Of a stretch of 39,458 nucleotides of DNA, positions 19,022 through 39,327 are shown one piece after another. The stretch covers positions 1 through 39,458 of IMG/VR virus record IMGVR_UViG_3300044655_000546; one strand, written 5' to 3'. This DNA is from a virus. The first letter of the stretch is position 1, and each line of letters begins with the position of its first letter. The notes beneath the pieces were generated by a model. That model was given only the letters and a program-made list of their open reading frames with translations. It ran no database searches and was not told where the DNA came from. A program made the position numbers and the translations under genes.

Positions 19022-19053
19022 GCCCCGGCTTCTCTCCTACCGGGGCCTTTTTT
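19022..19053 (+). terminator. rho-independent terminator of the plus-strand arm
   Basis: GCCCCGG (19022-19028) pairs perfectly with CCGGGGC (19040-19046) around an 11-base loop. One C separates the stem from six T (19048-19053). Read on the minus strand there is no T-tract after the hairpin, so it is efficient for plus-strand transcripts only. The T-run overlaps the stop codon of the opposing 2068-codon gene. Confidence 0.88.
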
Positions 19054-22000
19054 ATATCTCAAACCCGTACTGTCTAGCGAGGCGCACGCCTTTAGCAGCT
19101 ACGCGATTCCTGTCCTCAGTTAGCTTATCTATCCGCTGCTTCTTAACCCGAGGGTCTAGGTCCGTGCGGTTCGTAACGCGCTCGATGTTGGCAGAGAGTT
19201 CATTCATGGTATCCATGTTCTCTTTCAGAGCTTCCTTGGAGCGCATTAGATCCTTAAACTTCGGGTCATCCTTGAGCGTCTGCATCAACTGCGTATTGCC
19301 CTTGGTCCGTGCAGCGCTTTCCGTAGCTGCAAACTGTTTGACCTCTTCGTATACATCGTAGAAGTCTTCCACTGCCTTATCCTTGGCACCCTTCACTAGC
19401 ACGCCCTTAAAGAAAGGCTGATCCGCAAGAATCTTCTCCGGCTTTTCTGGCCCATTGTAGAGAGCATAATCAGATGCAACCCTAGCCAAGCCCCACACCT
19501 GCCCAAAGTACCCTTCCATCACGCGCTCCATACGATCTGGAGACAGCACCTCTGCATCAATACCCATACCGTGCAGCTCTTTCGCTACGTCCTTCATCAG
19601 TTCTCCTGCCCTGCGGTCACGCAAGTAAGGGAGCTTCTCTGAATCTCCACGGCTTTCAATCGGCGCCCAGTTGTGGAAGTCGAAGTTCATCGCCGCTTCT
19701 GCCAAAGGTTTTACAGCATAGATCATAGGGAACGGAGGAATCACCGTATCCATCACCGTCTTACCGACTTCCTTGGCCGCTCTCTTGGTGCTAATGACAC
19801 CCATGTTCGCCAGAGTGATAGCTTCTGGAATCGTCTTGAGCAGTGCACCTAATTCAAACTGGATCGGTTCTTTAATGAACGGCTGGTCCTTATCTCCAGT
19901 GGGTATTAACCAATTCGAAGCGCGATCCGTAGCCTTCAGATAATCCTCGTCATCAGACATTGCCATAGCATAGGCTGACGTATACATCGCAACCAGAGCA
20001 GCACGAGTGTAGAAAATACGCCGTTGTTCCATCGCCTCTGCCTTAGACAGACGCCCGATCTTCTCAGGAGCCATAGCTTTAGCAGCAACATGCAGACCGT
20101 TCAGCGCGGCGCCAAAGAATGGAGTCACAGCTCGCATGGTGCGAGCCAACTCAGAACGTCCCTGACGCGCAAAGTTGATGATCTCTCGGGCCTTGATTGC
20201 CGCAATGTTCTCGGCATCTTTAGGACTGAACCCTTCACTAATAGCTTGCTTGTATGCCTTGTCAGCAACGACGGCGCGTGTGGCACCGTCCACTGCTTCG
20301 TGAATTTTCTTAACCTGATCGACGCCTTTGATCACCCAACCTTTGTCCTTGCTGACGTACTTGGAGAACTCAACGGGATCAGTGATTACATCCTGTGCAG
20401 CTACGATACCTCTACGCTGGAGCTTCTCATACCACTCTGACTTGTTCGCCATGATCTTGGTGAGCTCTTTCATCGTATCGAACGGAGTGACCATACCCAC
20501 ACGAGCAACGGCGCTGGCAGTCAACGGTTCGCGCACCAACTGCCTGAACCAGAACAGAGGATTCATAACCATCACACCGCGCACAAGGTTCGAAACTTTC
20601 TTGAGCTGACGGAAGATCGGATTGACCAGAGGCTGTGCACCCATGAGAGCAAACAATGCCTGCTTGTCGTAGACCTTGTAGTACTGGGGCTCACCATTCT
20701 CCATGACCGTGAGATCAGCCTGCTCCTTATGCTTCACACGTTCCGCTGACCCTGCAACAGATAACTGTTCAGCAAAGGCTTTGTTGAGATCGTTGCGCAT
20801 CGACATCATGGTGGTCATAGCCAGATGCTTGAGTAGGTTGGCTTCAACCATGACTTCATGGAAGTGGCGCTTCTGCTGCTTGATACCCGGCTGACGCTTA
20901 GTGCTACGCATACTGCTACGGAACGCATCGACTAGTGCATGGTTCGTAGGATCGTAGAGCATACTGTCGAAGTCTTTCTGGAGTTCATTCTCCATATTCT
21001 TGTACAGCGGGATATAGTTCGGACGCGTACGGCAGAAGTCAGCGAACTCCTTATTGATTACACCGCTAGACTCAAGGTTATCGACGCACGTTCTCAGCAG
21101 GCTGTAGACGTTTTGCGCTTCGTTGGCAAGCTGTGGATCAGAGGCTTCCAAAGCCTCAGCCATTTTCACTTGTTCATCAGTAGCCCATGTGCGGCTCTCG
21201 TACTGATTCTGAAACAGCTTAGTAATTTCCTCTGCTTTACCTTCAAGGGACTCAGCCGTCTCTATGAAACTTGCCTTTTTCTTTGCATCTTTCGTGCGTC
21301 GAGCTGCGGCGCGCAGATCATCTGCCATCACTTCGTAGTTAGCAGCGGTGTCCTTTTTCTTCTGATCTTCTGCACGGATGGTGCGAGCAACCAGACCGAC
21401 GAGCATGTTGTTAAACTTTTCTGCTTTACCTGCTTCAGTAATATCGCGGTAGATACGCTCAAGAGCCACATTCGGGTTTTTCTGTACGCGGTAGGTTCCG
21501 TCACCGTTAGGCATGATAGAACCATTATGTACGGCGTCGGTCAGCAGGTTCCCTGCTTGCGCATAAGCACTTGCCACCATATCAACAGCGGCTTTGCCGT
21601 CTACCATCATGGGGCGATCTTTAGTGGCTTTACCCAGATCATCGTACATATCCAACCATTCACTGGTGAAGGAGGTTCTGCGCCCTTCTTTGAATATGTC
21701 ACGCGCTCCGTCTGCAAACTTTTGAGAAAAGCTACGCTCCCTCAGCTCACCTGCCAACCCAATTTCATCGGGCTGTTCTTTGTGCACTTCACGAGCTATC
21801 TCTTCATCGTCGGCAATCTGCTTAGCGATCTGCGGGCTAGCTTTCTTGCTAGGAAGGCCAATGCCTTCCGCTTCCGTAGTTTTAAGCAATGACTGCAGTG
21901 CTGTTTCAAGCTCTGCCAGAGCAGGTTTCATTTGAGCGAGTTCTTCAATCCTTGCCTTACGATCAGCAACGCGCTGATGGTAATCACCAAGCGCCTTTTC

Positions 22001-25000
22001 AAAAGCTATTCTGTTCTTCTCTGGAATACCAAATAGCTTGCGCATGAAGTCCGTGAATTTATTCCACAGCGTAGGCGCTTGCGGGCGCGTCGGCTCCCGT
22101 CCCATACGACGAGATGCTTCAAACTCTCTGTTCTTTTTCTCTGCTTCAGTGATTCGCTTTCCATCCGCAGTATATTCACTGAGCACTTGCCGGAATGTTG
22201 GAGAAGTCAAACCGTAAGCAAGCAGCTCGCCCGGATCTCTATTGACATTACGCGACCAGAACTCGGCCACATTTTTAGAGTCAGGCGTTGCGGAAGGATG
22301 CCGCGCCGCGTTATCAAGGGCACCGTTGATCTTGGAAGACATTAGATCGAGCTGACCTTTGACTGCCGGGTTACGCGCAATAGATCCTGTGGTTAGCCCA
22401 TGCACCATCTCGTGAGTAAGGACATGCTCAGTGAACGCATCTGGGTTGTCGCTTCTGAAAAAAACGTTAGATCCAGTAGGGCCTGTTTCTGTTACACCGT
22501 TAGCTGTACGGAATGCGTGAACGATATCTGAAGAGAGTGTGTCCCCCGTCTTAACGAAAGAAACGCCAACGTCCTTTGCATAGGGAGATTGAAGAAGCTG
22601 ATGCGCAAGATCACCCAATTCCTTATGAGTTCCATGCTGTGTATAGCGCTCAAGCAGATCCTTTCCTGTCTTAACGTCAGAGAACTTGGCTATGTCTAAA
22701 GGCAGTGCGCCTTGATCTGGATTTCTGACGACAGCGGTTTGCACTTGTGGAGCTTCAATAGCCTGCGGTACGCCCACCCCTTCCTGCGCTTGAACAGCTA
22801 CGTCTACGGGCGTGTACTCATCCAGAGTTCTACGCGTGCCCTTCTTCATGCCATACTTTTCAGCAAAGTCTTTGGCATCATCAAGCGTCTTAAAGATGTA
22901 GGAACCTCTACGCGTATTTACACGGAAGCGATTGCCTTGTTCGTAGCCACCACCCGGAGCAAAGTATTCCTGCGCTTTCTGATGGAAGTGCTTACCAAAG
23001 GCGGCTTCGTACTCACGAGACATGCCGCCTCCAGAGTCGATAGGAACGGGGCCTTTTTCTAGCGCTTTTCTATGGATAGCTTCTTCATCAAGAACGCCAT
23101 ACTGACCCTTAGCCCATGTGAAGAGCAGGGGTTCTTTAAGCGGAGCTGCTGGTGTTACCGTTTCTTGGACTTTACCTTCTGCGGTAGGCTCTTTACTGAT
23201 TTGGTCGCTGACGCGTACTCCTTCCCCACCTTCTGTGGGATACCCAATTTCTTCGCCACCTTTGGGTCGTTCGCCACCGCCTGCATCAGTCGGTTCTGGG
23301 CCTTGGATTTTGCTGGCATACGGTTCGACCTCCATCTTTAGATAATCACGAGCCATCGGCGGTAAGTCGCCGCGGGACTCCATAACATTCAACGCGTCAC
23401 GGAGCGGCAAGCTCTGCAGCTCTTCGGGGATTTCAAACGGGAGCTTAGGACGAGCCACTTCTGGCGCACCTTCAGGGACTTCTACTCCTTCATCTTCTTC
23501 CGATGCCCTAAGTTTCTGCGTACCGATCTGTGTCTTAGCCGCTTCCTGTTCTTTAATCTTCTCAAGTTCAGTCGCCTTCATATGGCGACCAGCAAGACCC
23601 GCACCTGCGCCAGTGATTGCATAGAACGGAGCGCCTTGGGCTAACGTATCCTTGTATTCTTCAAACGCACCCTTATCCCAGAGAGGTTTGTCCGTATAAG
23701 ACCGTTCAAGTACAGAAGTCGCAATATCAGCAGAGGCGCCAGCAGCTTCGGCAAGCCCTGCATTCTTAAGAGCGTTACTAACGTAACCGCCAATCTTCTG
23801 CTGCGTTGCTTCAACACCTTCCTTCGCAACCATAGCCTGAATTGCTTCACGCGAACCTAAGATAGCGTCTTCGCTAGCGGCGCGGAACAAAGGCGCAATG
23901 CGTCCCCACGGTAGAAGATTAACGGCCCCTGCTGCGGCAGCATATGGCGCGGCTTCGCCTAGTTTGAAGTCTTTACCTTCAGCTTCAGCACGTTCTTTCA
24001 GTGCACCAAGCTCCTGCGTACCCATAAGCCCAGCGGCGGTAGCAAGACCACCAACACCCGGAACAGCCATAGCAGGAAGGATAGGAACAATTCCAGCACC
24101 TGCTTGCACGAGAGGAATACCGACCTTGCGCTTGATAACACCCGCCTGTTCTTCAGTAGGCATTTCAAAGGCACCTGCGGCTTCCTTCTGCTTCTGTCGC
24201 GCCCATTCTTCAGCAGTCTTTGCGATTCCTTCAGCGCCTACGGCTTTAGCAAGTTCAGCGCCGCCCAGACCTAATTGACCCAGAGAACTCTTAAGCGCTT
24301 GCTTGCCAGCAGCGCCGAGGCTTGTGTAGTCCGGTACAGGCTCACCCTTAGCGACAGTCAGTTCAGGTGCATCACGACGAAGCGTGTGCATGATGTCTTC
24401 ATCACCCATCGTATAGGGGACGTTTATAACTTCACCCTGAACCGTTTGGAAACCACGCATAGGAATGGCATCTTCGCCGTTATCCTTCAGAATACGTGCT
24501 ACATCATCGAGCGTATGGTTAGGATCGACATTGATCGTCTCACCCGTAGAGAGAAGCACAGGCACCATAGCAGGTTGTGCAGGCTGTGCCGATGGGGCAA
24601 GGTATTGCGCAGCGGGGGAGTTAGGATTCGAAACGTCCAGCATTCCTTCTGGAGCTGCACCTTGTTCCCCATATAACCCACGAAGCTGATTGACTCGGGC
24701 TACATACTTCTGCGTTTCCTCGAAGCGTGGAATACCCCCATACTTCTTAACATTGCCTTCACCTGCGTTGTACCCAGCAAGGGCCAGAGATGGATCACCC
24801 CCAAACATATCAAGGAGGCTACGCATGTATTTAGCCTGTGCATGAGCAGAGGCAACAGGATCACTTGGGTTGGTAAGACCAAAACGCTTTGCCGTAGCAG
24901 GCATGAACTGAGCCGTACCCACAGCCCCTTTAGGAGAGATCGCGGCAGGATTGAATCCAGACTCCTGATGGGCCTGTGCCATGAGCAGATCGTACGGCAC

Positions 25001-25258
25001 GCCGTACATAGCACTCACTTCTTTATAGATAGGAGCAAGCTGAGCCGCTCTTTCCTTAGCATCTTTAGATAGTTGTGGTATCGAGCCTGTAGGGAGCGCT
25101 TCTCCACGCACTGGGCTTTCAAGCTCAGCTAAACGCGCTCGGTTCGCTGCCCGCTCTTCTTCAGTGATCGGCCTAATGCCAAGCAGCTCATCGAGCTTAG
25201 AGCTGCCTGAACCAACGGAAGTATCGAAAAGGAAATCGAGCGGATTACGCTGGCTCAT
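19052..25258 (-). CDS. giant multidomain virion protein: lytic transglycosylase, HExxH region, LPD38-like C-terminus, 2068 aa
   Basis: Residues about 70-200 form an SLT lytic transglycosylase, with catalytic E99 in AHQESGFNP and the following GTAQFMP and ALAGYNAGEG motifs. It would open peptidoglycan for DNA entry. A helical region with a hydrophobic patch (about 390-415) follows. HEMVH at 949-953 is a zinc-metallopeptidase motif in context THEMVHGLTTG. The C-terminal third has MNPLFWFRQLVREP (about 1555-1600), FFGAALNGLHVAAKAM (about 1710-1725) and downstream blocks typical of LPD38 domains of large polyvalent phage proteins. Such proteins are packaged and ejected into the host. It is last in the late arm, 12 bases after the upstream gene. 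Confidence 0.92.
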   Translation of the reverse strand: MSQRNPLDFLFDTSVGSGSSKLDELLGIRPITEEERAANRARLAELESPVRGEALPTGSIPQLSKDAKERAAQLAPIYKEVSAMYGVPYDLLMAQAHQESGFNPAAISPKGAVGTAQFMPATAKRFGLTNPSDPVASAHAQAKYMRSLLDMFGGDPSLALAGYNAGEGNVKKYGGIPRFEETQKYVARVNQLRGLYGEQGAAPEGMLDVSNPNSPAAQYLAPSAQPAQPAMVPVLLSTGETINVDPNHTLDDVARILKDNGEDAIPMRGFQTVQGEVINVPYTMGDEDIMHTLRRDAPELTVAKGEPVPDYTSLGAAGKQALKSSLGQLGLGGAELAKAVGAEGIAKTAEEWARQKQKEAAGAFEMPTEEQAGVIKRKVGIPLVQAGAGIVPILPAMAVPGVGGLATAAGLMGTQELGALKERAEAEGKDFKLGEAAPYAAAAGAVNLLPWGRIAPLFRAASEDAILGSREAIQAMVAKEGVEATQQKIGGYVSNALKNAGLAEAAGASADIATSVLERSYTDKPLWDKGAFEEYKDTLAQGAPFYAITGAGAGLAGRHMKATELEKIKEQEAAKTQIGTQKLRASEEDEGVEVPEGAPEVARPKLPFEIPEELQSLPLRDALNVMESRGDLPPMARDYLKMEVEPYASKIQGPEPTDAGGGERPKGGEEIGYPTEGGEGVRVSDQISKEPTAEGKVQETVTPAAPLKEPLLFTWAKGQYGVLDEEAIHRKALEKGPVPIDSGGGMSREYEAAFGKHFHQKAQEYFAPGGGYEQGNRFRVNTRRGSYIFKTLDDAKDFAEKYGMKKGTRRTLDEYTPVDVAVQAQEGVGVPQAIEAPQVQTAVVRNPDQGALPLDIAKFSDVKTGKDLLERYTQHGTHKELGDLAHQLLQSPYAKDVGVSFVKTGDTLSSDIVHAFRTANGVTETGPTGSNVFFRSDNPDAFTEHVLTHEMVHGLTTGSIARNPAVKGQLDLMSSKINGALDNAARHPSATPDSKNVAEFWSRNVNRDPGELLAYGLTSPTFRQVLSEYTADGKRITEAEKKNREFEASRRMGREPTRPQAPTLWNKFTDFMRKLFGIPEKNRIAFEKALGDYHQRVADRKARIEELAQMKPALAELETALQSLLKTTEAEGIGLPSKKASPQIAKQIADDEEIAREVHKEQPDEIGLAGELRERSFSQKFADGARDIFKEGRRTSFTSEWLDMYDDLGKATKDRPMMVDGKAAVDMVASAYAQAGNLLTDAVHNGSIMPNGDGTYRVQKNPNVALERIYRDITEAGKAEKFNNMLVGLVARTIRAEDQKKKDTAANYEVMADDLRAAARRTKDAKKKASFIETAESLEGKAEEITKLFQNQYESRTWATDEQVKMAEALEASDPQLANEAQNVYSLLRTCVDNLESSGVINKEFADFCRTRPNYIPLYKNMENELQKDFDSMLYDPTNHALVDAFRSSMRSTKRQPGIKQQKRHFHEVMVEANLLKHLAMTTMMSMRNDLNKAFAEQLSVAGSAERVKHKEQADLTVMENGEPQYYKVYDKQALFALMGAQPLVNPIFRQLKKVSNLVRGVMVMNPLFWFRQLVREPLTASAVARVGMVTPFDTMKELTKIMANKSEWYEKLQRRGIVAAQDVITDPVEFSKYVSKDKGWVIKGVDQVKKIHEAVDGATRAVVADKAYKQAISEGFSPKDAENIAAIKAREIINFARQGRSELARTMRAVTPFFGAALNGLHVAAKAMAPEKIGRLSKAEAMEQRRIFYTRAALVAMYTSAYAMAMSDDEDYLKATDRASNWLIPTGDKDQPFIKEPIQFELGALLKTIPEAITLANMGVISTKRAAKEVGKTVMDTVIPPFPMIYAVKPLAEAAMNFDFHNWAPIESRGDSEKLPYLRDRRAGELMKDVAKELHGMGIDAEVLSPDRMERVMEGYFGQVWGLARVASDYALYNGPEKPEKILADQPFFKGVLVKGAKDKAVEDFYDVYEEVKQFAATESAARTKGNTQLMQTLKDDPKFKDLMRSKEALKENMDTMNELSANIERVTNRTDLDPRVKKQRIDKLTEDRNRVAAKGVRLARQYGFEI

Positions 25259-31882: not shown

Positions 31883-32125
31883 CTACGGTACGATTTTAAG
31901 TACGTTGCCTGCGCCAGCATCGCGCCAGACAGAGCCTGATGGCAACCCCGTTGCCGAAGTGGGGAGATCAGAGAGTGTCAAAGTAGCTCCCGCAATGGCC
32001 CCCGGATTCGCGTGCTGCTGCATATAGTAATTCAACTGCCGCACGATCATATTCAGGTATTGAACATCATACTCTAGCGGGGCCAGCGAAAGGACGGGAT
32101 CTGGGACATTGTTCCTATTAGCCAT
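31883..32125 (-). CDS. conserved small phage protein, 80 aa
   Basis: The start ATG at 32125 overlaps the upstream stop as TAATG, preceded by GGAGAGG; a longer frame to 32179 would run into the 870-aa gene. The C-terminus LPSGSVWRDAGAGNVLKIVP closely resembles a recurrent C-terminal phrase in small virion-cluster proteins of podovirus-like phages. The function is unknown. Confidence 0.7.
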   Translation of the reverse strand: MANRNNVPDPVLSLAPLEYDVQYLNMIVRQLNYYMQQHANPGAIAGATLTLSDLPTSATGLPSGSVWRDAGAGNVLKIVP

Positions 32126-34737
32126 TAGCCTCTCCGCCCGTCGGGCTGTATACGCAGGCGCGGCACGCCGAGCTGCCATTTGACATCGAGATCATTACTC
32201 CCGATACGGAATGCTACCTGCCTTGCTCTAAGCCTGATCCACGCCTGATTCGTGTAATTATAGACCTGCGTAGTGACCTCGGAGCTTGCGACAACCTCGG
32301 AATCGGATGTGCGGAAATTGCCTTGACCCGGATAATCACGCCCTGAAATCGTCATCGTCACATACGGTGCCGGGACAATCGAACCAATGAAGTCTACGTC
32401 AGGAATAATGCGCGTCACAAACGCAAGGCTGTTGCCTTCGCCCAAGTCAAAGTCGGCGCTTTCAATGTAGGCATTCATCGGGATCGGTGGGTTCACCGCC
32501 GCATCGTTCAGCCCCGTCTCGTGATAGAGAATGTTCCCCGCACCCTGCCCGCCAATGATCGTCAGCGTATCGCCCAGTGTGTAGTTGATCCCCGGCTGAG
32601 AAATCGTGACACTGGTGATCTCACCATCATTGTTCAAAGCCACAACAAATGAGCAGTTGGCTCCCGAACCGCCTACAGCGATGACTGAAGAAGAGGAAGG
32701 TGCTTTCGTGTACTGCCCACCGTCGATGATATCGACACCCGTAATGGCCCCCGTAGAGGAAACCCCGGTGACTTCAAGCACCGCTGCGCGGTTGTATGCG
32801 GCAATCGGCACGCCCTGAATATGAGACCCCATCCACGCAGAGCGTAGAAGCTGCCCGTAATACCAGAGCTTTTCCAGATAGTTGTAGACCACGTAGCGAT
32901 CATTGTACGTAGACCCGGACGACGGGTAGTACCACCAGACCTCGTTGTACTTTTCATTCTGCCCAGCATAAATCTGCTGAAGCTGCTCGGTGTTGATATC
33001 GTCGAAAATGTACTGACGAAGCGAGCAAGGCAGTGTATCCACACGCCCAGAGTACGCATAGAACTTGTCCTGCCCCATCCAGTAGGTGATGTTGTTCGCC
33101 GTGACCACCGAGTTGGCAGAGGAGATCGTGATGTCCGTCGCCAGAGGCGTAAACCCAAAGACGTAAGGCGGCCCCAGATACCGCATGGAGTACAGCGAAG
33201 AATCCGTCCAGATCAGATATTCCTGCCGTGTGGCCTCTACCGTGATGATCGAGCTGCCTGAAGAGAGTCTGTAGCTACCCGCCGTGTTCGTTGCAGAAGG
33301 TAACCATGTGGCCGGATCTTCCTGACTGCACCATGAAATAAACATGGGGTCTTGCTGTGTTGGCGACGTAGCCAACCAGTCGTTGGTACCAAAGGCCACA
33401 ATATGCCGTTCTTCCGTGACCAGAACATTTGACGCAACATAAGGTGCATAGCCATCCGCACCGGGGTAATCCAGCAAATCCAAAGCACGGGCTGTAACCT
33501 GACCGCCACCTGAAAGACTGGTACCGGGGTCCCAATAATAAACGCCGCCGCCATCCGGGTTGAACACCAGCATCTGACCGTAGTTGTCAGAACTCCAAAG
33601 ACGCAGATACTCGCGGAAGCCCTGTACCGTATCGGAGAGCGTAATACCTGTGTTCCATCCTCTGGCATTGGCAACGCTGTACTGAAGACCTGTGACGTCG
33701 CGCCCAGACAAATGATCCGTCGCCATCGTATCGCCAAACCCACGAGTGCACCCCGTCAAGCTGGTGCCTGTCTTGCCTGAGTATTGAATCCACTCTGCTT
33801 CGATATAGACGTACCCAGAAGCTGCAAAGGCGCTCGCATCCGTAACCGGAATGGTTGTTGCCGAACTATTGATATCCGCCGTTGTGGTCGTAAGACCTGC
33901 ACCTGTAGCTTGACTTACCCATGTCCCTACACCCCAACCATTACCGAAGATGTTAACGTCACCGCCGATAGTGAGCTGGAAGAACGCATGTGCCGGAGCA
34001 TTACCCCCACCCGCGGTGGTTGAAGTCGATTGAACCCCTGTATCAACGGCAATATAGTTGGTCGCAACGCCGACAACTTGGAATTCTGTATTGAGCTCTG
34101 CGGCAGTATAGGGACCGAAGGCCGTCAAATCTTCAAGGGTGACATAGTCACCGGGTCCTGCACCATTCGATACGCTGTTGATTGCTACGTAGGTACTGGT
34201 GATCGTGGTTGACGACGTATGCGTAGCAGGTGTCGTGTTGTTGTAGCCTCGAATGCAGCCGGAGAGCGTCGTGCCGGAGGCCGTAGCAACGTAGATATCT
34301 TCAGATCCAATCGTAATGACATAAGGCGCTGCGCGAGTAAACGCCGTACCGGAAGACACCGTGATAGACGTTGCTGTGTCGCTGATCGTCGCCGCCAAAG
34401 ACCCATAGATAGGGTAGACAGGATCGGTAGGGAGGGTGGAGTCCAACCGAATCGGCGTGATGTCATAGTAGCTGCCACCGACCTGAACGTAGTACTTGAG
34501 GTTTGTACCAATTCCAAGAATGAAATATCCCGACAGCGAGACCCATTCAATCAGGTTACGGCAGGTGCCCAGAAAATACCCAGACCCATTGATGACCCAA
34601 CCACCAACAATTTCAGGTGAACCCGAGCGGAAGCGCACCAAGTTACATGAGTACCAGCCCCCTTCGTTAGCCAAATCTGTGCTTTCCCGCGAGACACCGG
34701 GGCGCATCTGAATTTTTTGAAGGACTGGTTCGGTCAT
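32125..34737 (-). CDS. P22 gp10-like structural protein with two inserted beta modules, 870 aa
   Basis: The N-terminus (IQMRPGVSRESTDL, GGWYSCNLVRFRSGSPEIVGGW) and propeller-like blocks (GGVYYWDPGT, VVYNYLEKLWYYGQ, ending in KWQLGVPRLRIQ) resemble the family containing P22 gp10, which seals the portal and tail. Two about 54-residue modules, residues 119-173 and 290-343, repeat one pattern: T-x-I-x-V, an F/A turn, then GT-x-L-x-GC-x-RG and a TxATxH-like end. These recur in other phage surface proteins. A further beta module (VSSTGAITGVDIIDGGQYTKAP) follows. Structural role likely; the gp10 link is by pattern only. Confidence 0.7.
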   Translation of the reverse strand: MTEPVLQKIQMRPGVSRESTDLANEGGWYSCNLVRFRSGSPEIVGGWVINGSGYFLGTCRNLIEWVSLSGYFILGIGTNLKYYVQVGGSYYDITPIRLDSTLPTDPVYPIYGSLAATISDTATSITVSSGTAFTRAAPYVITIGSEDIYVATASGTTLSGCIRGYNNTTPATHTSSTTITSTYVAINSVSNGAGPGDYVTLEDLTAFGPYTAAELNTEFQVVGVATNYIAVDTGVQSTSTTAGGGNAPAHAFFQLTIGGDVNIFGNGWGVGTWVSQATGAGLTTTTADINSSATTIPVTDASAFAASGYVYIEAEWIQYSGKTGTSLTGCTRGFGDTMATDHLSGRDVTGLQYSVANARGWNTGITLSDTVQGFREYLRLWSSDNYGQMLVFNPDGGGVYYWDPGTSLSGGGQVTARALDLLDYPGADGYAPYVASNVLVTEERHIVAFGTNDWLATSPTQQDPMFISWCSQEDPATWLPSATNTAGSYRLSSGSSIITVEATRQEYLIWTDSSLYSMRYLGPPYVFGFTPLATDITISSANSVVTANNITYWMGQDKFYAYSGRVDTLPCSLRQYIFDDINTEQLQQIYAGQNEKYNEVWWYYPSSGSTYNDRYVVYNYLEKLWYYGQLLRSAWMGSHIQGVPIAAYNRAAVLEVTGVSSTGAITGVDIIDGGQYTKAPSSSSVIAVGGSGANCSFVVALNNDGEITSVTISQPGINYTLGDTLTIIGGQGAGNILYHETGLNDAAVNPPIPMNAYIESADFDLGEGNSLAFVTRIIPDVDFIGSIVPAPYVTMTISGRDYPGQGNFRTSDSEVVASSEVTTQVYNYTNQAWIRLRARQVAFRIGSNDLDVKWQLGVPRLRIQPDGRRG

Positions 34738-35065: not shown

Positions 35066-36187
35066 TTAATCCTTGGAGGCGATGATGATATCGAGATACT
35101 GTACCGCAAGATTGATGGCTGAGCCTGTGAAAGATCCTGATCCTGTGAACCCGTGAGTGTGTGTTTGACCGCTACCCGTACTACCCGTATTTAAAACATA
35201 GTTGAACGCTGCTCCGCTACCTACAGCATTCAGCACGGTGCCGGGAGAGTTACCTGTACAAACAAAACCATTACCAAACGCATTATGCGAGTGGGAGGGA
35301 AGCTGAGCTTCTGTCAAAGCGGTACCGCCTACGGTACCCGAGACACTCACTGAACCTGAAGGCGTTTGAGAAGCAAAAGCCGTTGTGAACCCTACCGAAC
35401 CCCCTGTACCCCCGCCGCCACCGCTTACGATGCGCATGGCATAGTTATTATAAGTTGTCACCTGAGTCCAACCCGCAGGAGGCGAAGCCTGCGCAAACAG
35501 CATTTTCGTCGTAGAAGGAATTCCCGCGCCGCCCGCTACGGTGTCTACATAAGCCTTTGTTGCCGCATCGGCGCTCGATGTCGGCGTAGCCATGTTCGTA
35601 ATTTTATTCGTCGTGCCCATGTTAATGGCACCGGACATTGTCCCGCCCGCTTTGGGGAGATAGCTGCCAAGCAGCGTATTGACTGCACCGACTGTGGTGG
35701 CATCTGTGGAATTGGTGGGGGTGCCTGAGATGGTGACGGTGTCGGCTGTGATGGTATTGGCTGTAAACGCATCTGCCGCGTTGCTGCCCTCAAAAAAGTC
35801 CGTGCCGTCCGTATAGACTAACTTGGCGGTACCCGCAGGGATAGCCACCGATACAGGAGAACCCGATGCCGCCGTGACAATCTCGATATCCGAAGAAGCT
35901 GAGTTGTCTACGATATAAACCTTGGAGACATTGGCCGGAGTAATGATACTCCGCGTTACCCCCGCAGAACCCGTCGCTACAATCACCATCGCTCGGGCTT
36001 GGTCAAAGGCACCGTTAAGGGCCGTCAGCGTCTTGTTGCTCGCGGAGATATCAATCTCCACAATGCCGGTCAGAGCTTCTTCAATCAGCGTACCGAGGTT
36101 GGTATTGGTCGTGTTACCCCAAGTGCTTGCCTGTTCACCCGAGGATATGAGTTCAAGCCGGAGATTGGAACTGTAGGTCGAAGACAT
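35066..36187 (-). CDS. tail fibre protein with collar-type C-terminal domain, 373 aa
   Basis: The N-terminus (LRLELISSGEQASTWGNTTNTNLGTLIEEA) is a typical phage tail-fibre attachment region. The middle has the fibre phrase YLPKAGGTMSGAINMG and ATKAYVDT. The C-terminus (about 225-373) is a phage tail collar / microcystin-type domain: PPAGWTQV, LPSHSHNAF, TGSGQTHTHGFTG, ending in NLAVQYLDIIIASKD. The clustered His (HSH, HTH) typically bind metal at the receptor tip. It is probably a host-range determinant. The start is preceded by TAAGAGG fused to the upstream stop. Confidence 0.9.
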   Translation of the reverse strand: MSSTYSSNLRLELISSGEQASTWGNTTNTNLGTLIEEALTGIVEIDISASNKTLTALNGAFDQARAMVIVATGSAGVTRSIITPANVSKVYIVDNSASSDIEIVTAASGSPVSVAIPAGTAKLVYTDGTDFFEGSNAADAFTANTITADTVTISGTPTNSTDATTVGAVNTLLGSYLPKAGGTMSGAINMGTTNKITNMATPTSSADAATKAYVDTVAGGAGIPSTTKMLFAQASPPAGWTQVTTYNNYAMRIVSGGGGGTGGSVGFTTAFASQTPSGSVSVSGTVGGTALTEAQLPSHSHNAFGNGFVCTGNSPGTVLNAVGSGAAFNYVLNTGSTGSGQTHTHGFTGSGSFTGSAINLAVQYLDIIIASKD

Positions 36188-36196
36188 TGTGGCCTC

Positions 36197-37063
36197 TTAG
36201 GTCTGTACGTTCTTCCAGCTTGTGCTGGTCGATGTGGTTACATTACCCCAAGCCGATCCGGGGAATTTACGAATAGGTGGCAGGGGCTGCGGCAATGCAC
36301 ACAAGGGCTGCGTAGCAATCGCGAAATCATCTCCATACACCAGCTCGTCATACGCAATTTCAGTCCACACCCCATCGCAGTGATTAGGACAGGTGCCCGG
36401 CTGTACCGTGGGAATGATCTTCCAAAGCCGCAACTCATTGAGCGTAGTATAGATTGTCTGAGAACCCGCAACAAGAACGACATCCGTTATGAGCGATACG
36501 GAATTCTCTGTAAGAGAAAGGCTCTGCGAGGCTGCGGTGAGATTGACCCCAAGAGAAAGGGAGACACTGTTCAGTGTCGATGTCAGCACCTGAGAAGTCA
36601 GGTCGATCTGGTTGTTCGTACTCAGTGTGACTGAGTTCTCCGTGAGGAGAAGCACCTGCGAAGCCAGCGTCGCGTTTACGCTCGTGGACAGAGCCACGCC
36701 ATTCAGCGTCAGAGACAGTGTTTGGCTATCAAAGGTCGGAGGTTGTACCTCGATGGAGACCGAGTTCTCGGTCAGCGTTAGGCTTTGCGAAGCTAGCGTA
36801 GCGTCCACCCCGGTGGACAGCGTGACCCCGTTCAGGGTCAGGAATAGAGGCTGACCTGCGACCTCGATGACATCGTCATCGCTGATAAGTACAGAGTTCT
36901 CTGTGAGGAGAAGGGTTTGAGAACCCAGCGGGATCGTTTGTCCCGTAGATAGAGTGACGCTATTCAGCGTCAGGGAGATGGTTTGTGAGGCGAGTGTTAC
37001 CTCAGCATTGATCTGCCCGAGCGAAGCTAGGGGCGCATCCGCAATAGGATAGAACCCCAGCAT
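36197..37063 (-). CDS. virion protein with nine alternating 22-residue repeats, 288 aa
   Basis: After a short head (MLGFYPIADAPLAS, common in phage structural proteins), residues 26-222 form nine tandem repeats of about 22 residues. Odd repeats read SQ-x-(L/I)-x3-LN-(S/G/E)-V/L and even repeats SQ-x-L-x-LTENSV, so the true unit is a 44-residue pair. The spacing and the alternation of hydrophobic residues suggest a beta-solenoid or stacked beta-hairpin rod. The tail (CPNHCDGVWTEIAYDELVYGDDF) is a small Cys-containing cap. Its place beside tail fibres suggests a fibre, spike or decoration. The repeat number may vary by recombination. Confidence 0.75.
   Translation of the reverse strand: MLGFYPIADAPLASLGQINAEVTLASQTISLTLNSVTLSTGQTIPLGSQTLLLTENSVLISDDDVIEVAGQPLFLTLNGVTLSTGVDATLASQSLTLTENSVSIEVQPPTFDSQTLSLTLNGVALSTSVNATLASQVLLLTENSVTLSTNNQIDLTSQVLTSTLNSVSLSLGVNLTAASQSLSLTENSVSLITDVVLVAGSQTIYTTLNELRLWKIIPTVQPGTCPNHCDGVWTEIAYDELVYGDDFAIATQPLCALPQPLPPIRKFPGSAWGNVTTSTSTSWKNVQT
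36398..36988 (-). repeat. tandem repeat region, about 66-base units alternating in two types
   Basis: DNA encoding residues 26-222 of the preceding protein: nine units of 63-66 bases, conserved mainly in the SQ and LTLN/LTEN segments and diverged elsewhere. In-frame change in copy number would keep the gene open. Confidence 0.85.
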
Positions 37064-37069
37064 TTTTGC

Positions 37070-37246
37070 TTACTTCTTTTCGCGAAGAACGAACAGAATC
37101 AGACCTGATACACCAACACCCGCCGCAGAAATCTGCTTGACCAGCTCAGGATCAAGTGCGTAACCCGCAGCAGACAGCATGGCTGTGAGCCCCAAATAGG
37201 TGGTTGGTTCTTTAAGCCGATCTAAAAACCAAGAAAGGAATGTCAT
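37070..37246 (-). CDS. holin-like small membrane protein, 58 aa
   Basis: The frame runs from ATG 37246 to TAA 37070. Two hydrophobic segments (about residues 15-30 and 41-54, VGVSGLILFVL) are separated by a short polar turn (DPELVKQ), and the C-terminus is REKK, a holin-like layout. It follows the endolysin gene with a TAATG overlap, the expected lysis-cassette context. Sequence families of holins are diverse, so the call rests on topology and neighbourhood. Confidence 0.7.
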   Translation of the reverse strand: MTFLSWFLDRLKEPTTYLGLTAMLSAAGYALDPELVKQISAAGVGVSGLILFVLREKK

Positions 37247-37843: not shown

Positions 37844-38191
37844 TTAGTTTTCGGAAACAGGAGTCTGCCACGGAAGCGGCGGCGTGACAATCGGAGGATC
37901 AATCTGGTTCTGGATCTGCGTATCAATGCCAACATAGATCGCCGCGACCTGTTCTGCACCCAGTGCATCCTGAGTCCACTGAATGACTTCAGCTTCGGTT
38001 AGGTCTGCATAGGGGATGTAGTTGGGCTTGTCTGCATTCACCGCAAATGAAACGGTTGAGTAAACCTGACCTGAGAAAGTCCCATCCGTGCCAGTGCAGG
38101 ACCAGTGAGAAGTCACAACGTAATCCGTCTTTCCATCCACATCAGGGATGCAGTCAAGAGCAGAAATCGTCCAAGTGTATGTGTTCGACAT
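37844..38191 (-). CDS. DUF7936-type phage protein, 115 aa
   Basis: The opening YTWTISALDCIPDVDGKTDYVVTSHW, the segment GQVYSTVSFAV and the end QIDPPIVTPPLPW are the signature of a conserved phage protein (DUF7936) found near tail fibres and lysis genes. Its function is unknown; the predicted beta-rich first half suggests a small structural or fibre-associated protein. The start overlaps the upstream stop as TAATG. Confidence 0.8.
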   Translation of the reverse strand: MSNTYTWTISALDCIPDVDGKTDYVVTSHWSCTGTDGTFSGQVYSTVSFAVNADKPNYIPYADLTEAEVIQWTQDALGAEQVAAIYVGIDTQIQNQIDPPIVTPPLPWQTPVSEN

Positions 38192-39327
38192 TAGTTAATC
38201 CTCTTTTTGAGTTCGTTGAGTTCTGCTTTCAAGTCGGAGACTTGGCTAGAGAGTTCTTGGACGGCTTTGACCAACCTTGGGGTGAGCTTACCGAAATCAA
38301 CGCCCATCATTTCTTCTGGGTCAGCAGGGGCGCTCACAGCTTCTGGAACAACTTCTAAAAGCTCTTGGGCAATATAACCATAGTCAACGTGTGACCCATC
38401 TGCTTTCCAGTCGAATGAACGAACCTTGATGGCATTGACGGAATCTAGTGCGCCGGGAGCGTCTGCGATGTTTTCCTTGAGGCGTTGATCTGATGTAATG
38501 TTATAGAGAACACCTGTTGTGCCGTTCTGGGTGATTGAACCAATCCGTGTACCGTTGTAGTAAAAAGCAGAATATGGAACGCCGCTAGATGTGCCGTTTG
38601 TATGGCCGATCCATTGCTCAGCAGCGCCTCCAGCAGGGTAAATAATCAACCCACCAGCAGTTACATTGCTCGTCGTCCCAACCAACAAATTCCCACTCGC
38701 ATCCAGCGTCATCGCCTGAGTGAAGGAGATTGCGTTTCCTGCTGTGCCGGATGGGGCGTTGTACCAAGCGTGCATACCCCCGTTTTGGATGTACCAAGAT
38801 GCCGCTCTTGAATTTATGTATCTCCATGTGCCGCCAGAATCAACGTATCCGTTTGCCGCGATATTCGGAGTCGGATCAAGACCCCCAGCCACGTAAGCGG
38901 CAAAAGTACCACCGGGCATCTGTATCGCCTTGAACGAAACGTCAGTTCTCCAAGCACTCGGCGTAACACCCAAGCCAAGGTTGCCGGAGGAGTCGAGGCG
39001 TAGCCTTTCCGTACTTCCAGTACTCCAACCCAGAGTATTCGTCGTAGGGAGATACATCCCATTCGCCGGAGCCGTCGAGCCTGTGACCGTGACGCGAGTG
39101 AATGCGCCCGTGTTCGGAGTCGTTGATCCTATCGGCGGCGGTGTCGCAAATGCTGTGGTCGATGCCGTGTAGGTGACAACGTAATCAGCGATGTTGACTA
39201 GATTGGTGAAGCACGGAATGAACCGAGTACGCCAACCGCCGTTACGGAGGCCAGTGGTTGCGTTATCGTCATCTGTGACCGTCGAGCCATCGCCCCCAAT
39301 GGCGGTTGGAAAAGTAACTGAACTCAT
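38191..39327 (-). CDS. tail fibre with S74 intramolecular chaperone, 378 aa
   Basis: The N-terminal 60 residues are an attachment region. The shaft carries repeated fibre phrases (RLRLDSSGNLGLGVTPSAW, MTLDASGNLLVGTTS). From about residue 272 a peptidase S74 chaperone follows: ITSDQRLKENI holds S279 and K284, the self-cleavage dyad. Then come RSFDWKADGSHVDYGYIAQE and a C-terminal coiled coil (VQELSSQVSDLKAELNELKKR). In this family the chaperone drives fibre trimerisation and is then removed. It is a second fibre, distinct from the collar-type one. AAGGAG precedes the ATG. Confidence 0.92.
   Translation of the reverse strand: MSSVTFPTAIGGDGSTVTDDDNATTGLRNGGWRTRFIPCFTNLVNIADYVVTYTASTTAFATPPPIGSTTPNTGAFTRVTVTGSTAPANGMYLPTTNTLGWSTGSTERLRLDSSGNLGLGVTPSAWRTDVSFKAIQMPGGTFAAYVAGGLDPTPNIAANGYVDSGGTWRYINSRAASWYIQNGGMHAWYNAPSGTAGNAISFTQAMTLDASGNLLVGTTSNVTAGGLIIYPAGGAAEQWIGHTNGTSSGVPYSAFYYNGTRIGSITQNGTTGVLYNITSDQRLKENIADAPGALDSVNAIKVRSFDWKADGSHVDYGYIAQELLEVVPEAVSAPADPEEMMGVDFGKLTPRLVKAVQELSSQVSDLKAELNELKKRIN

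Follow-up and report, generated by a model that had tools for sequence, protein, structure and literature searches.

In SU10, the nozzle tryptophans W839, W847 and W857 hold the short fibre in a pseudo-threefold manner, each contacting Ile24 of one fibre chain (PMC9509320). The spacings of these tryptophans, 8 and 10, were verified in the sequence (GPIWSDFQEITWDDPSIKELVW). Nozzles of the P22/LUZ24-like lineage have been reported to be common in marine metagenomes (PMC10386132). For most uncultured phages, the mounting of fibres on the tail is obscure, and the proteins of the family described below are annotated as hypothetical.

The present locus lies in a viral DNA stretch of 39,458 nucleotides (IMG/VR record IMGVR_UViG_3300044655_000546), the whole of which is hereafter called the window. 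One gene of the window encodes a protein of tandem 22-residue repeats that ends in a series of tryptophan motifs. With moderate confidence, we propose that this protein is a length-adjustable stalk associated with the tail fibre, which would dock the adjacent fibre in a podovirus of the P22 gp10/LUZ24 lineage.

The repeat gene and its neighbours

The repeat gene is complete (36197..37063, minus strand) and encodes 288 aa from an ATG start. Its dN/dS against three relatives of 97, 84 and 70% identity (L001-L003) is about 0.08-0.18, and purifying selection acts on this open reading frame. The earlier note had placed the gene between a holin-like gene and a tail fibre, and this placement was confirmed: a holin-like ORF of 58 aa (37070-37246) lies upstream, and a tail-fibre gene follows 9 bp downstream. 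The latter gene (35066..36187, minus strand; 373 aa) would encode the docking partner. Residues 1-192 of its product match phrog_31104, and residues 198-346 match PDB 9nxk, 'Tail fibers protein', with E=1.4e-6. A second fibre of 378 aa, encoded at 38191-39327 on the minus strand, carries an S74 intramolecular chaperone domain at its end. The phage therefore carries at least two fibre types.

The gene at 32125..34737 on the minus strand encodes a P22 gp10-like nozzle (tail tubular protein B) of 870 aa. It matches PDB 9nwi (E=7.4e-15), the nozzle proteins 8zkm/8zkk and phrog_3287 (E=6e-69), and its gene sets the repeat-gene locus within a podovirus tail module. The window also encodes, at 19052-25258 on the minus strand, an internal virion protein of 2068 aa that starts with an SLT transglycosylase domain and ends with an LPD38 domain.

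Period and alternation of the repeats

The 288-aa protein begins with a motif, MLGFYPIADAPLAS (residues 1-14; 37022..37063, minus strand), which is identical or nearly identical in relatives and common to the distant family, and which we regard as a candidate anchor. Nine tandem units follow, starting at residues 26, 48, 70, 92, 113, 135, 157, 179 and 201. The eight spacings are 22, 22, 22, 21, 22, 22, 22 and 22, i.e. 22 aa seven times and 21 aa once. On the minus strand, the first four units occupy 36923..36988 (residues 26-47), 36857..36922 (residues 48-69), 36791..36856 (residues 70-91) and 36728..36790, the fourth being the one of 21 aa and bearing the landmark VQPPTFDSQ. The next four occupy 36662..36727 (residues 113-134), 36596..36661 (residues 135-156), 36530..36595 (residues 157-178) and 36464..36529 (residues 179-200), also on the minus strand. 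Unit 9 (36425..36463, minus strand) is degenerate (SQTIYTTLNELRLW) and merges into the C-terminal domain (36200..36424, minus strand), the proposed fibre dock, which contains four W-x-x-[IV] motifs (W214, W233, W272 and W283).

The consensus of the units is S-Q-x-L-x-L-T-[L/E]-N-[S/G]-V-x-L-S-x(8). Hydrophobic columns are invariant at unit positions 4, 6, 11 and 13, and Asn-Ser/Gly separates the two pairs. The i,i+2 columns 4/6 and 11/13 flank an N-[SG] turn, a pattern that two short beta strands on either side of a tight turn would give. Tandem Repeats Finder detected no DNA tandem repeat in the gene, and the 22-aa repeats are therefore old and maintained at the protein level.

The earlier note had described nine tandem repeats that alternate strictly between two types, and this description holds for the window protein. 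Position 8 of the nine units reads LELELELEL, so that odd units are of the L type and even units of the E type, and the self-similarity of the protein is far above chance. The alternation is real but shallow. The L and E types are essentially one residue apart, and the signal at lag 22 (z=9.9 against shuffles) is at least as strong as that at lag 44 (z=8.5). When the L/E column was left out, the odd/even grouping of the protein units ranked only 17th of the 126 possible 5/4 splits. In the DNA of the units, the same grouping ranked first of 126, also with the L/E codon left out. This rank suggests that pairs of units were duplicated in the past, and the L/E alternation is a local sequence feature and a quirk of the lineage, probably a residue of such duplication.

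The relatives show how quickly the alternation is lost. At 97% identity, the position-8 series is still LELELELEL (L001), while it is LELELELLL at 84% (L002) and LELELLLLL at 70% (L003). At about 45% identity, the series are LPLQLLQ (L005), LLLLLLLQ (L006) and nearly all L (L010). The landmark VQPPTFDSQ is kept in these six relatives and has the form VDPPTF in L018, and the number of units preceding VQPPTFDSQ among the relatives is 3, 5 or 6. The length of the array therefore changes by whole units, as the earlier note had supposed in calling it adjustable, and the alternation is not conserved.

These results bear on the further claims of the earlier note that the true period is 44 residues and that the alternation implies two non-equivalent faces or strands. 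Under this reading, the protein would be a beta-solenoid rod, an adhesin or decoration, with a true 44-residue unit and two repeat types forming two faces. The strict alternation in the window protein and L001 and the first rank of the alternation at the DNA level speak for such a rod, and so does lag 44 in a handful of distant members, where it scores slightly above lag 22. The alternation, however, is broken at 84% identity and gone at about 45%, and outside the L/E column it has the low protein-level rank given above. In L018, the series is EEEEQEQQQQL, with E or Q in every unit except the last. Relatives without alternation are of the kind that the earlier note itself had named as telling against its claim. 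The series of L002, L003, L006/L010 and L018, together with the lag analysis, rule out a strict 44-residue two-type repeat. The two-face reading as a whole is largely refuted by the non-alternating relatives, and we consider it highly improbable. What survives of the earlier proposal of an adjustable, fibre- or adhesin-like protein is a set of fibre-associated beta-type repeats of variable length next to a tail fibre; the two faces and the 44-residue unit do not. In four distant members with 23-aa repeats (L087, L088, L096 and L059), the top lag is 46, and paired units may exist there too.

A wider family and its C-terminal tryptophans

The earlier note did not recognise the repeat as a named family, and none was matched in Pfam, PHROGs, NCBIfam or the PDB sequences. 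The window protein gave no match in Pfam, PHROGs or NCBIfam, and the PDB, searched with the protein sequence and with a repeat profile, gave nothing meaningful. A tblastn search against cultured phages also gave nothing; when relaxed to E values up to 10, it returned MW202473 alone. A profile search of genome contigs found no prophage relatives, and the N-terminal motif gave a single match in such contigs, in one Chloroflexi MAG. Literature searches found this repeat family described nowhere.

Close relatives were taken from IMG/VR contigs, and distant members were collected by a pattern scan with the N-terminal motif M[LF]GFxPIAxxP[LI]A, which found 119 stretches in viral contigs. The plan of the family consists of the N-terminal motif, an array with a period of 20-23 residues and, often, C-terminal W-x-x-[I/V/Q] motifs. 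The window protein carries the N-terminal motif (MLGFYPIADAPLA) and shows all three family traits, i.e. the motif, a 20-23-residue array and a tryptophan series with a fibre gene next to it. Almost every member scores highest at a lag of 20-23 or at twice that value, with a mode of 22, and the spacing is almost free of indels, L011 having 24 successive units at exactly 22. The array sequences differ greatly among the members (SQSLTLTxNSV, GVSATGSVGTVTV, SGSFTLTGQ and TQTHALTATxITTG types). Members without an array also exist (L079, L097 and L098; 55 aa, both ends present). These proteins form a broad, unnamed phage protein family that is absent from Pfam, PHROGs, NCBIfam and the PDB sequences.

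An HMM of the SQ-type repeat gave suggestive in-register matches to the GV-type array (E=0.004) and to the MW202473 array (E=4.6e-4), column-permuted controls for the latter being far lower. The same HMM gave no linkage to SGF-type arrays, for which permuted controls scored above it. A single origin for all arrays is therefore not claimed. GV-type repeats were also seen in gp53 of CRP-901 (L164) and in L024 (1-648), in a protein adjoining genes for the tail adaptor/tail tubular protein A. Some phages may therefore possess two repeat-stalk genes.

The fold of the array was examined by AlphaFold2. The full-length window protein was predicted as mostly beta with a pLDDT of 36. Six repeats with a 23-row repeat-shifted alignment gave a better model, also mostly beta, with a pLDDT of 50; this model has a few long strands and shows no solenoid. 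Both predictions are of low confidence and neither is usable. A beta-solenoid or beta-helix fibre, which the period of 22 and the strand-like hydrophobic columns would allow, could thus not be demonstrated. A Foldseek search with the six-repeat model against viral models gave no match at E<=0.001.

It is worth noting that the low pLDDT values would also be explained if the repeats were a flexible, largely disordered spacer of low complexity, in which only the two ends of the protein matter. The strong divergence of the array sequences and the 55-aa members, which keep both ends and have no array, agree with this interpretation. On the other hand, the 20-23-residue period is kept across unrelated arrays with hardly any indels, the hydrophobic columns alternate, and the repeats are under purifying selection, with the dN/dS given above. 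None of these three features is needed by a disordered spacer, and they therefore count against it. We consider such a spacer unlikely.

The synteny of the family was analyzed in 84 distinct complete loci, 78 of which have a readable next gene. In 39 of the 84, the locus includes a nozzle homologue, which lies 0.4-3.4 kb downstream in almost every case. The fibre N-terminal signature WG..N is present in the next gene of 43 of the 78 loci, as compared with 69 of all 1676 ORFs of these loci.

The C-terminal tryptophan motifs, on which the earlier note did not remark, are probably the functional end of the protein. Tryptophan makes up 3.3% of the tails (last 75 residues) of the family members and 0.2% of the repeat bodies, a 15-fold difference. 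The distances between successive tryptophans in these last 75 aa are exactly 10 or 11 in 88 of 112 cases, as against 7.5 expected. A W-x-x-[IVQ] series is present in 32 of the 34 members with a fibre gene next to them and in none of the 14 with a BppU-like gene; among all non-fibre neighbours, it is present in 9 of 29 (p=1.2e-7 against the fibre neighbours). The fibre/BppU association is partly confounded with phage lineage, and after clustering of the neighbour genes the counts are 8 of 9 (fibre) and 0 of 7 (p=0.0014).

In an independent retrieval, viral contigs were scanned with the tryptophan motif alone (WTEQ-10 and WTxI-11), and the plan of the family was found again. All 48 WTEQ-10 matches lie at ORF C-termini; a fibre gene follows in 32 of 47, and 41 of the 43 scorable bodies have a period of 20-24. 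For WTxI-11, the motif is C-terminal in 49 ORFs, in a few of them clearly by chance, and 32 of the 49 are followed by a fibre gene. The N-termini of the ORFs retrieved in this way are mostly of the GFxPIA, YG or WG type.

The four tryptophans of the window protein are spaced by 19, 39 and 11 and do not form a clean 11-mer series. In two short relatives, L035 and L130, the four tryptophans are spaced by 11, 11 and 11, and the window series corresponds to this four-motif series with insertions between motifs 1 and 2 and between motifs 2 and 3. Distant relatives (L006/L154 and L010/L148) have a glycine-rich accessory domain of about 75 aa in the putative dock region, between the second and third tryptophan motifs, which resembles residues 654-702 of the window nozzle (41% over 51 aa, E=0.001).

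The proposed stalk and known tail systems

The tryptophans spaced by 10-11 residues, their location at the end of the protein, the gene position just before the fibre and the dock of SU10 together led us to propose a stalk with a C-terminal fibre dock. A virion location, an elongated beta fold and fibre docking are what we infer from these data. In the proposed mechanism, the N-terminal motif (MLGFxPIAxxPLA) would act as an anchor or a tip, either bound to the hub as an adaptor or directed outward. The 22-residue beta-type units would build an elongated shaft, whose length would depend on how many units it has. The tryptophan motifs at the C-terminus would dock the N-terminus of the trimeric fibre encoded immediately downstream, and by analogy with SU10 each fibre chain would be met by one tryptophan motif in pseudo-threefold fashion. 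The exact period, as in the 24 units of L011, and the hydrophobic columns fit beta strands and argue for this stalk, as do the synteny with fibre and nozzle genes, the tryptophan data and the array of MW202473, described below. Against it stand the pLDDT values of 36 and 50 with no significant fold match, the irregular tryptophan spacings of the window protein, the SU10 spacings of 8 and 10, which are located on a different protein, and a tryptophan copy number that ranges from 1 to 7 across the family and is not fixed at three. The partial confounding of the fibre/BppU association with lineage and the lack of a mark in the particle proteome for phiM5_18, described below, also stand against it.

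More tentatively, we suggest that stalks of this kind form a widespread class, in which an aromatic/glycine anchor, an adjustable beta array of 20-23-residue period and a multi-tryptophan dock would grip a trimeric fibre pseudo-threefold. The array sequence would be free to drift while the period stays. If so, this would be a general modular method of fibre mounting, overlooked because repeats defeat family profiles. The three-part signature would then help to recognise fibres, and the proteins that mount them, in many phages from the environment, and the dock offers a testable rule for the way in which one polypeptide chain engages a fibre trimer.

The array of the podovirus MW202473 belongs to a protein annotated as tail tubular protein A (UOF77207.1; MW202473.1, L013, 8083-10341). 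About 14 N-terminal units of 22 aa in this protein show the pattern x-L-x-L-T-x-x-x-V-x-L of the window protein. They differ from the window array in their fusion to phrog_394, the domain of tail tubular protein A, and in having neither the tryptophan motifs nor the MLGF motif. Since the array precedes the tail tubular protein A domain, such arrays would be located on the tail with their C-terminal side at the hub. This arrangement would also suit a distal adhesin, attached by its C-terminus, with the shaft running outward from the fibre base and an N-terminal tip on the host surface. DB2 gp11, in which the array follows a different and longer N-terminal region and a tryptophan series stands at the C-terminus, is likewise consistent with an adhesin. 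The N-terminal motif, however, is a short one that even distant phages conserve to a high degree, whereas a host-binding tip would be expected to diversify. An adhesin of this kind seems quite unlikely to us.

In the cultured Sinorhizobium phage phiM5, phiM5_18 (ARV77520.1) resembles the window protein in its place before a WG..N fibre gene, its aromatic-glycine N-terminus and its three C-terminal tryptophan motifs spaced by about 10 residues. It differs in the YG-type N-terminal motif and the body sequence, so that the likeness is one of architecture and position. In the phiM5 particle proteome, phiM5_18 is not marked as detected, and the products of neighbouring genes are. This record, and the position of the gene directly upstream of the fibre, would be expected of an assembly factor or chaperone outside the virion, co-expressed with the fibre. 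Tandem beta-type repeats of variable number suit an architectural part better, and a similar array is joined to tail tubular protein A in MW202473. Furthermore, K and R are absent from the window protein as far as residue 211, and most of such a protein would therefore be missed by trypsin-based proteomics. We regard an assembly factor as decidedly unlikely.

Roseobacter phage CRP-6 gp57, Pelagibacter phage HTVC023P gp68 and DSL-LC04 WJZ48131.1, proteins of cultured phages that are annotated as hypothetical, show all or part of the three-part plan. Their repeat sequences differ from those of the window protein, and CRP-6 gp57, which adjoins a BppU-like gene, lacks the tryptophan series.

The proposed stalk can also be compared with SU10. 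There, a loop of the nozzle carries the tryptophans, whereas here they form the C-terminal end of another protein, the repeat protein; the window nozzle is encoded by its own gene, so that the series is not part of an SU10-type nozzle loop. The motifs found here have the form W-x-x-[I/V/Q] with a spacing of 10 or 11 in 1-7 copies, and the resemblance is a likeness without demonstrated sequence homology. The 'fibre dock loop' of the SU10 nozzle gp17, which receives the short tail fibre gp16, nevertheless shares with the present system tryptophans about 8-11 residues apart. Both are podovirus systems with a nozzle, an adjacent fibre gene and a trimeric fibre with H-x-H pairs at its tip (PMC9509320).
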